Source: Deltaproteobacteria bacterium (lineage in GTDB: Bacteria; Myxococcota; Myxococcia; Myxococcales; SZAS-1). Taken from it: a stretch of 64,000 nt of DNA. Both the position numbers and the translations under genes were made by a program. This document shows, piece after piece, positions 58,268 through 61,461 of this stretch (positions are counted from its first letter, which is position 1; each line of letters starts with the position of its first letter). The stretch is from NCBI GenBank assembly GCA_018266075.1, contig JAFEBB010000031.1, positions 1 through 64,000 of the forward strand, in the 5' to 3' direction. Under the pieces are notes generated by a model. The model ran no database searches. It was not told the DNA's origin and worked only from the letters and a program-made list of their open reading frames with translations.

Positions 58268-58978
58268 ATGGTCCAGCTCAACGCCGCCGCACGAGAGCTC
58301 ACCATCAAGGTCGTCTATTACGGCCCCGGGCTCTCCGGAAAGACCACCAACCTGCAGCAGATCCACGCGCGGCTCGCGCCCGAGATCCGCGGGCGGCTGC
58401 TCTCGGTGGAGACCCACGACGACCGCACGCTCTTCTTCGACCTCTTGCCCGTCTTCTTCGAGAGCCAGCAGGGCCTGAAGGTGAAGGTGAAGCTGTACAC
58501 CGTGCCCGGCCAGGTGATTCACCAGGCCACGCGCAAGCTGGTGCTCCAGAACGCCGACGCGGTGGCCTTCATCGCCAACTCGCAGCGCGACGCCAACCAG
58601 GAGAACAACGAGTACTGGGCCAACCTGCTCGCGAACCTGAAAGACAACGGCCTGGATCCAGAAGAGATCCCGGTGGTGATCCAGTTCAACAAGCTGGATC
58701 TGCCCAACGCCAAGACGCCCGAGGAGCTCGACGAGGTCCGCAAGCGCGGCTCCGAGCCCGTCTTCGGCGCGGTGGCGGTGCGCGGTGAGGGCGTGCTGGA
58801 GACGCTCCACGGCGTGCTCCAGGCGGCCTACCGGCACCTCGACAAGAAGCACGGCCTCTCCTCGCGGCTCAGCCTCACCGAGGAGCAGTTCCTGAGCGGC
58901 GTGTTCCGCAGCCTGGATCTCAAGGGCACCGCACTGGAGTCGCAGTTCGCGCCGCCGGCGGCGCAGGGGGCGAGCTGA
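58268..58978 (+). CDS. MglA-like small GTPase
   Basis: The 236-residue protein belongs to the MglA family of bacterial Ras-like GTPases that set cell polarity. The P-loop is YYGPGLSGKTTNL, the switch 2 motif is the MglA-type YTVPGQV (Thr rather than Asp) and the base-specificity motif is QFNKLDL. It has an extra C-terminal segment (about 195-236) absent from M. xanthus MglA. No MglB gene is adjacent; instead a histidine kinase follows with a one-base overlap, suggesting that they act together. Confidence 0.9.
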   Translation: MVQLNAAARELTIKVVYYGPGLSGKTTNLQQIHARLAPEIRGRLLSVETHDDRTLFFDLLPVFFESQQGLKVKVKLYTVPGQVIHQATRKLVLQNADAVAFIANSQRDANQENNEYWANLLANLKDNGLDPEEIPVVIQFNKLDLPNAKTPEELDEVRKRGSEPVFGAVAVRGEGVLETLHGVLQAAYRHLDKKHGLSSRLSLTEEQFLSGVFRSLDLKGTALESQFAPPAAQGAS

Positions 58979-60504
58979 TGGCCTCCGTGTCGCCGTTCGG
59001 GCCCACGCCCGCGACCGAGACGCCCGCCTCGCCCACGGCGCCCACGAACGTGGTGTCCCCGCCCGCGCCCGCGAAGAAGAACGAGCTGCCCGAGAGCGTC
59101 CTCGACCGGCGGTTGGCGCTCGAAGATCTGCTCGAGACCTCCAGCTTCACCGAGGTCTGCAAGAGCTTCGTGGAGCTGTACCGCATCGGGCTCAAGGTCT
59201 TCGACCACCGCGGCCAGCGCGTGGTGGACATCCCCGCGGGCAACGCCGAGTTCTGCGGCTACGTCTTCAACTTCGCGCGCGGCCAGCGCGGCTGCAGCTC
59301 CACCGTGGACCGCCTCAAGAACGGCCCGGTGAACCTCAGCCTGGGCGCGCGGGCGCCGCAGTCGGCCGACGGGCCCAAGGGCACCATCACCGTGCCCTGC
59401 TTCACCGGCCTGCGCTACTTCATCGTGCCCCTGAACTTCGAAGGCGACGACCTCGGCCGGGTGGTCTTCGGCCCCTGGTGGCCCGAGGACCAGAAGGGCT
59501 TCCCCGAGTCGCTGCTCGCGCTCGGCGACGGCTTCGACGAGCAGAAGGCCAAGCAGCTCCTGGACCCGGTGCGCAAGGCGCCCGAGGCCACCGTGGCCCG
59601 CGTGCTCAGCCAGTTCGCGAAGGTGCTCGAGGCGCTCATCGTCAGCGGGCGCAAGCAGTACCTCACCGCCCAGGTGCACCTCGAGGCCACCCGCGAGAGC
59701 TACCACGCGCTGGAGGCCAAGAACTCGGAGCTCACCGCCGCCAACGCGCGCCTCAAGGACCTCGACCGCCTCAAGAGCGCCTTCCTGGCCACGGTCTCGC
59801 ACGAGCTGCGCACGCCGCTCACCTCGATCATCGGCTACTCGGAGATGCTCACCGAGGGCATGGCCGGGCCCATGAACCCGGATCAGCGCGACTACGTGAA
59901 GATCATCATGGAGAAGGGCGAGACGCTGCTCGGGCTGATCTCGTCGATCCTGGATCTCACCCAGATCGAAGCGGGCAAGGTGCGGCTCAACTTCGAGCCC
60001 GCCGACATGAACGAGCTGGTGCGCACGTCGATCTCCAGCGTGCTGCCGCAGTTCCAGAAGAAGGGCGTGCGGCTGCAGGCGCAGGTGTCGCCGCTGCCGC
60101 ACCAGCCCAAGCTGGATCGCGAGAAGATCCGCCAGTGCGTGGTGAACCTGCTCTCCAACGCGCTCAAGTTCACGCCCAACGACGGCCAGGTGACGGTGGT
60201 GCTCCAGCCGGGCGGGCCCTTGGGCTCGAGCGAGGCCTTCACCCTCGCGGTGCAGGACACCGGCGTGGGCATTCCCGGCTCGCACCGGGATCGCGTCTTC
60301 GAGAGCTTCTACCAGGTCGACAACTCCAGCACGCGCGAGTACGGCGGCGCGGGGTTGGGCCTGGCCATCGTGCGCGCCTACGTGCAGGCCCACGGGGGCG
60401 AAGTGGGGCTCGCCTCCGAGGAGGGGAAGGGCAGCACCTTCAGCATGGCCTTGCCCTACGAGCCCAAGCCGCGTCGCGCGCCGCGCACGCCGTTCGGGGA
60501 CTAG
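58978..60504 (+). CDS. PocR-type sensor histidine kinase
   Basis: The 508-residue kinase has a PocR sensory domain at about 45-220 (FTEVCKSFVELYRIGLKVFD, with Cys in GYVFNFARGQRGCSS and TVPCFTGLRYFIVP). It is followed by a coiled coil, a HisKA domain with SHELRTPLTSIIGYSEM (phospho-His) and a HATPase with NLLSNALKF, DTGVGI and GAGLGLAIV. There is no transmembrane segment, so it is cytosolic. It overlaps the MglA-like gene by one base and has no adjacent response regulator. Confidence 0.88.
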   Translation: MASVSPFGPTPATETPASPTAPTNVVSPPAPAKKNELPESVLDRRLALEDLLETSSFTEVCKSFVELYRIGLKVFDHRGQRVVDIPAGNAEFCGYVFNFARGQRGCSSTVDRLKNGPVNLSLGARAPQSADGPKGTITVPCFTGLRYFIVPLNFEGDDLGRVVFGPWWPEDQKGFPESLLALGDGFDEQKAKQLLDPVRKAPEATVARVLSQFAKVLEALIVSGRKQYLTAQVHLEATRESYHALEAKNSELTAANARLKDLDRLKSAFLATVSHELRTPLTSIIGYSEMLTEGMAGPMNPDQRDYVKIIMEKGETLLGLISSILDLTQIEAGKVRLNFEPADMNELVRTSISSVLPQFQKKGVRLQAQVSPLPHQPKLDREKIRQCVVNLLSNALKFTPNDGQVTVVLQPGGPLGSSEAFTLAVQDTGVGIPGSHRDRVFESFYQVDNSSTREYGGAGLGLAIVRAYVQAHGGEVGLASEEGKGSTFSMALPYEPKPRRAPRTPFGD

Positions 60505-60510
60505 CGACAC

Positions 60511-61461
60511 ATGTCGACCGCATCCGCCGTCGTCCTCGCCCTGGTGCTCGCGGGCTCGCAGGTGAGCAGCAAGGACGTGGACCAGATCATGGGCACCGTC
60601 TCCACGGGCACGCGCCCCGAGGTGGACAGGGCCATCAACCGCATCCAGTACCTGGGTACGCCGCGGCCCATCGTGTCCGCGCTGGTGCGCATGGCCCTCG
60701 GCGACGCGCCCGGAAACCCCGAGAGCGCGCTCTACGTGCTCAGCGTGCTCCACCCGCCCGAGGCCGGACCGGCGTTCCTGCGCCTGCTCGACGACGACTC
60801 CGGCGCGCTGCGGCTCGCGAGCTGCCAGGGGCTGACGCACCTGAAGCCGCCGCGCGGGGCTCCGGAGCTGGTGGCCGCGAAGCTCACCGACAAGGTGCCC
60901 GCGGTTCGTCGCGAGTGCGCGCGGACCTTGACCGCGTGGGACAAGGCGCCGGCGGATCCGCTCGCCCAGGCGCTCACCAAGGAGACGGATCCGGACGCGC
61001 GGCTCGCCGAGCTCGAGGCGCTGGGGCACGCCCAGGGCAAGGCGAGCGTGGCCGCGCTGGAGCCGGTGCTTGCGAGCAAGAGCGAGCAGGAGCGCTACGC
61101 GGCGGCGCGCGCGCTGGCGATGCTGGGCGCGCCGAGCGGACGCAAGGCGCTGGAGGGCTACCTGGCCTCGCTGGATCCGAACGTCCGCGCCGACGCGGTG
61201 GATCTCACGGCGGCGGTGAACGCCAGCTGGGCCACGGAGGATCTGGCCACCCGCCTCGACGATCCGAGCGCGCACGTGTGCATCCGCGCGGGGCGGGCGC
61301 TGGCGGCGCGCAAGGACAAGCGCGGCGTGGAGGCCCTGGTGCTGCGCGCCGAGCGGGCCAGCCCGGACGACAAGTTCGCCTTCGAGACGGCGCTCGCGGA
61401 GCTGAAGATCAACCAGGCCCAGCGACTCGACATCATCCAGAAGGCAGGCCGGGCGAAGTAG
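60511..61461 (+). CDS. HEAT-repeat protein
   Basis: The 316-residue protein starts 6 nt after the kinase. It has a signal-like N-terminus (TASAVVLALVLAGSQ) and then helical HEAT repeats, for example LRLLDDDSGALRLASCQGL, KLTDKVPAVRRECARTL and LEPVLASKSEQERYAAARAL. It is likely a protein-interaction scaffold in the GTPase-kinase operon. Function unknown. Confidence 0.78.
   Translation: MSTASAVVLALVLAGSQVSSKDVDQIMGTVSTGTRPEVDRAINRIQYLGTPRPIVSALVRMALGDAPGNPESALYVLSVLHPPEAGPAFLRLLDDDSGALRLASCQGLTHLKPPRGAPELVAAKLTDKVPAVRRECARTLTAWDKAPADPLAQALTKETDPDARLAELEALGHAQGKASVAALEPVLASKSEQERYAAARALAMLGAPSGRKALEGYLASLDPNVRADAVDLTAAVNASWATEDLATRLDDPSAHVCIRAGRALAARKDKRGVEALVLRAERASPDDKFAFETALAELKINQAQRLDIIQKAGRAK

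Follow-up and report, generated by a model that had tools for sequence, protein, structure and literature searches.

A kinase-coupled, SofG-type MglA-family GTPase conserved with a PocR sensor histidine kinase across Myxococcota

Group 1 of the MglA family of GTPases is recognized by an Arg finger in the G2 motif and by the sequence TVPGQ in G3, with NKxD, which serves guanine recognition, in G4 (Wuichet and Sogaard-Andersen, PMC4316618). SofG of Myxococcus xanthus, a protein of 239 amino acid residues, determines where the pilus ATPases PilB and PilT are located (Bulyha et al. 2013, as summarized in PMC4316618), and BacP is described as acting with SofG in positioning PilB and PilT in M. xanthus. 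In the same summary GTP hydrolysis by SofG is not stimulated by MglB and no GAP is given (PMC4316618). SofG thereby sets the sites of type IV pilus motors, and the open-access texts name nothing that regulates its GTP state. Conservons, in which a roadblock protein is also involved, are already known to couple MglA-family GTPases to histidine kinases.

The locus described here lies in a stretch of 64,000 nucleotides (the window) from a genome of the order Myxococcales. Open reading frames and Pfam searches bore out a run of three plus-strand genes, which an earlier reading of the sequence alone had proposed as an operon of an MglA-like GTPase, a PocR kinase and a HEAT protein. The GTPase gene (58268..58978 including the stop codon, 236 residues) shares one base between its stop and the start of the kinase gene (TGATG); the kinase gene (58978..60504, 508 residues) is followed, after a gap of 6 bases, by a gene for a protein of 316 residues with Pfam HEAT repeats (60511..61461). 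A GC-rich terminator-like hairpin (58184..58214, reported on the minus strand) separates the pair from the gene upstream; hairpins of this kind are no commoner here than in shuffled sequences. Promoter-like hexamers on the plus strand (TTGGAA-16-TACAAT, 58231..58258), which are a consensus match only, end 9 bases before the GTPase ATG, and a leaderless transcript is possible. Downstream of the HEAT gene, positions 61505-62047 encode a small, repetitive protein that is rich in cysteine and begins like a lipoprotein.

The coupling of GTPase and kinase extends well beyond this strain. The kinase gene lies directly downstream of the GTPase gene on the same strand in all 76 loci, from across the phylum, that have both, and in most of them the stop codon of the one overlaps the start codon of the other (median 4 bases). 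Of 195 genomes from the phylum, 161 have a kinase orthologue. Searches of 60 genomes with both proteins gave 53 with both and seven with neither, the latter spread over three family-level groups. The three-gene order is thus kept in relatives for the pair and not for the HEAT gene, which is found beside the pair in the window alone. Of 59 other genomes, 24 have HEAT homologues (about 28-36% identity), always at a distance from the pair, and none lies beside it in any other pair locus. What is conserved is a unit of two genes rather than three. The HEAT gene is a neighbor in this locus only, and its proposed role as scaffold or third component was rejected. The correlation between evolutionary distances of the GTPase and those of the kinase is 0.84, falling to 0.70 once the DifA distance is removed (25 loci, indicative only); part of it reflects shared descent. 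Over the same loci, the GTPase correlates better with the kinase core (0.75) than with the PocR part (0.54). Two GTPases from Holophagaceae (L077 and L099) have 300 residues, with a further C-terminal part, and show 54-55% identity with the window protein in the G domain; no kinase homologue is found near them.

The window GTPase carries these marks of Group 1: Arg53 within DDRTLFFD in G2 (58424-58426) and Gln82 within TVPGQ in G3 (58511-58513), both conserved. The P-loop reads GPGLSGKTTN (58322..58351), and G4 is NKLD (residues 141-144, matching NKxD), with N, K and D invariant in the alignment. Loss of nucleotide binding, which would have told against the proposal, is therefore not what the motifs suggest, since all of those for nucleotide binding are kept. 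Whether the PDB was searched by sequence or by fold, every one of the best matches is an MglA. The extra C-terminal segment pointed out earlier is real and conserved. It belongs to an extension covering residues 196-236 (58853..58975; consensus LtExEFLgqIFxxvDlxGT), of which residues 196 to about 227 are predicted to be ordered, with predicted helices at 197-201 and 205-213 and a pLDDT of 92-95 for the C-terminal block. This modeled segment is a candidate docking or contact site for the kinase.

Three MglA-family genes are present in the genome of the window. One of them is the true mglA (C11:25180), which adjoins the only roadblock gene detectable in this genome (G000:C11:24714) on a contig other than that of the pair. 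No MglB gene occurs within four genes of the pair, and in the other Myxococcota genomes that we checked the roadblock gene is also away from it. In a tree of 82 G domains, the kinase-coupled GTPases, including the window protein, form one clade (support 99/96) separate from the MglA clade and from that of the third paralogue. The pair is thus free of MglB, as had been proposed, and distinct from the true mglBA locus by both contig and clade. An mglBA locus that had merely lost mglB was considered and rejected, the true mglBA being elsewhere in the same genome. The description as MglA-like stands for the Group 1 MglA family and gives way, within it, to a SofG-type paralogue. The third paralogue (G000:C57:24720-25295; L031, about 4724-5296) lies in an ORF of 417 codons that includes a long extension at the C-terminus; within the order its orthologues make up a separate clade, and the only roadblock gene of the genome is elsewhere. 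Another genome (G048) has two divergent MglA-like GTPases with 29-34% identity (L069, about 4992-5567, and L070, about 5010-5534), one of them in an ORF of 451 residues.

Gene neighborhoods point in the same direction as the tree. Clade members in Myxococcaceae-like loci have 235-241 residues, several of them exactly 239. A divergent GNAT gene stands beside the GTPase gene in 20 loci, PilT-like genes are found further on in nine, and Dif-type genes (MCP, CheW or CheA) are within about 5 kb in at least 32 of the 76; the last count is a lower bound, as the stretches were short; Pfam was run on representatives. We take MXAN_6703 to be SofG. MXAN_6704 is described as GNAT, which the divergent gene fits, and DifA to DifE are MXAN_6696 to MXAN_6692, which the downstream MCP, CheW, CheY and CheA genes fit. 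By synteny, the kinase gene beside sofG in M. xanthus would be MXAN_6702. This GNAT and dif synteny was seen in Myxococcaceae-like relatives; the neighbors in the window differ, and the DifA homologue of this genome is on another contig than the pair. As a discriminator between genomes with and without the pair PilT was uninformative, being present in 59 of 60. Because of the clade, the length of about 239 residues and the GNAT, PilT and Dif synteny in relatives, we read the window GTPase, with caution, as the SofG orthologue; if so, SofG function would carry over to it. In 2008 an mglA gene was noted to accompany the dif gene cluster of Anaeromyxobacter (PMC2330069); judging from the present loci, it is probably the SofG-type gene. 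The suggested signal-linked control of polarity holds as far as the GTPase is kinase-coupled, and may be refined to genomic links with the type IV pilus and Dif.

The kinase has a PocR sensory domain (residues 50-221, 59125..59640), a HisKA domain (residues 266-333, 59773..59976) with the phosphoacceptor His275 (59800-59802), and a HATPase_c catalytic domain (residues 380-495, 60115..60462), as identified by Pfam and alignment. His275 is invariant across orthologues, and the catalytic residues are intact in both GTPase and kinase. AlphaFold models the kinase with only moderate quality (pLDDT 70), and the folds most similar to the model are kinase cores, HK853 among them for the catalytic domain. 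A sequence search of PDB with the PocR domain gave no match. PocR was recognized in 50 of 52 partner kinases, and its Cys93, Cys106 and Cys141 are conserved in 94-96% of the orthologues; sensing of a small molecule by this domain is plausible because the three cysteines are nearly invariant. In Polyangium-type partner kinases (L074:1896-3095 and L075:1804-3021) the sensor region is shortened. In the alignment the former has none of the three PocR cysteines, and its coupling to the GTPase is kept.

GTPase and kinase also occur as one protein in other phyla. A single ORF of 791 residues in an Acidobacteria genome (L084:6001-8373) comprises an MglA-type GTPase, GAF, HisKA and HATPase_c; strong matches were found in 22 of 297 Acidobacteriota genomes, and 12 of the 15 acidobacterial loci that were read through have the GTPase and a kinase H-box in one ORF. 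A Planctomycetota genome encodes a GTPase-HisKA-HATPase_c protein of 591 residues, which four further genomes match along its length. Wherever fusion genomes were checked, roadblock genes were on other contigs or far off, or none was found. These fusions show that a GTPase-kinase pair can act as one protein. In the 82-domain tree the fused GTPases fall outside the SofG-type clade; the association therefore arose separately, besides conservons, and the fusions support the principle only. Among other acidobacterial ORFs, L170 and L171 (both from 1501; 535 and 527 residues) start with an MglA-type GTPase, and a pattern search found no kinase H-box in them. An ORF from Nitrospinota (L083:6001-7347) joins an MglA-type GTPase to a SurA_N-like Pfam region.

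We propose, with a probability of about one half, that the GTPase and its dedicated, cytosolic PocR kinase form one signaling module without MglB. The PocR domain would sense a cytosolic small molecule, or a redox or metal state, and this cue would set autophosphorylation of His275. Either the kinase itself or a single-domain response regulator between the two would then shift the GTP/GDP state or the position of the GTPase. The GTPase would in turn act on the motors of type IV pili and, perhaps together with the neighboring Dif pathway, on polysaccharide output. In such a two-protein switch the PocR kinase would replace the MglB branch. Physical contact between the two proteins, the direction of the signal and the ligand are all parts that we infer. 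One point against the module is that a single-domain response regulator lies directly behind the kinase (by 18-243 bases) in only seven of the 76 loci, from several families; such a regulator is encoded behind the kinase in L117 and L118, for example. In the genome of the window, the regulator of the deep lineages has no clear orthologue among 41 similar receivers, of which the best are at 33-42% identity.

The signal might also run the other way, a possibility that we hold open at less than even odds: the GTP-bound GTPase would bind the kinase core and switch its activity, so that a response regulator would be informed of polarity or nucleotide state. The order in natural fusions, where the GTPase precedes GAF-HisKA-HATPase_c in a position usual for input domains, speaks for this, as do the stronger co-variation of the GTPase with the kinase core than with the PocR part and the case of the actinobacterial conservon Cvn8, whose kinase CvnA8 is activated when an accessory protein contacts it directly. 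However, the linker between GTPase and GAF in the fusions is long, and SofG, in the published summary, has a cellular output on PilB and PilT and so would not be a sensor only. It is unlikely that the two genes merely share an operon, co-transcribed for the same pilus and polysaccharide program without direct contact of their products. Dif, PilT and GNAT genes do cluster here in many families, but these neighbors vary, whereas the pair is kept in 76 loci and lost together, and fusions exist elsewhere.

Two further explanations draw in a third protein. Motifs of Group 1 like those of MglA, together with the one roadblock gene of the genome, would suit a diverged MglA that works as a polarity switch with the single MglB in trans, the kinase being incidental; yet the clade is separate from MglA, MglA is present with its own MglB, and hydrolysis by SofG is not aided by MglB in the published work as summarized, which leaves this reading very improbable. 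A three-component complex of GTPase, kinase and HEAT scaffold would agree with the short spacing of the HEAT gene behind the kinase in the window, but with HEAT homologues never beside the pair in the 24 other genomes that have them, we give it hardly any credence. The single signaling module of GTPase and PocR kinase is the most likely reading.

In the open-access texts that our literature survey covered, there is no description of a kinase beside sofG or of the fusions. Kept with the GTPase across the phylum, the kinase is a direct candidate regulator of SofG, within reach of M. xanthus genetics. The one-chain fusions mean that Ras-like small GTPases are joined to two-component kinases outside Actinobacteria too, and they offer single proteins for studying GTPase-kinase coupling. 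Tentatively, and as a speculation rather than an expectation, MglA-family GTPases with histidine kinases may be a recurrent class of MglB-free switches, comprising the Myxococcota pairs and the Acidobacteriota and Planctomycetota fusions, in which the kinase or its regulator would be the missing GAP or GEF of SofG and would couple a cytosolic metabolic cue to the placement of pilus motors.

Among described systems, SofG itself is the nearest: it shares with the window GTPase Group 1 membership, a length of about 239 residues, the Arg finger and the lack of coupling to MglB, and in Myxococcaceae-like genomes the same GNAT, PilT and Dif neighborhood, whereas the obligate PocR kinase partner and the phylum-wide range do not appear in the open-access texts surveyed. 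Actinobacterial conservons (CvnA-D, with a Group 2 MglA) likewise combine a histidine kinase with an MglA-family GTPase and have no conserved response regulator. They differ in including a roadblock protein and CvnC, where the pair in the window lacks a roadblock gene and has PocR as its sensor, and in a GTPase of Group 2 that lacks the Arg finger and TVPGQ, where that of the window belongs to Group 1. MglA/MglB with RomR and Frz also places a Group 1 GTPase under phosphorelay control. There, control is exerted through MglB and RomR/RomX; here, MglB is missing and the kinase gene is directly coupled to that of the GTPase. Loci of Group 1 Rup GTPases, with kinases or c-di-GMP enzymes, similarly place a small GTPase beside a gene for signaling output or a kinase (PMC4316618), but Rup is a different family with other catalytic motifs and other partners. 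Finally, the Dif system (DifA, DifC, DifD and DifE) adjoins the pair in many families, yet it relies on a CheA-type kinase, in contrast to the HisKA-type PocR kinase, and in the genome of the window it is unlinked to the pair.
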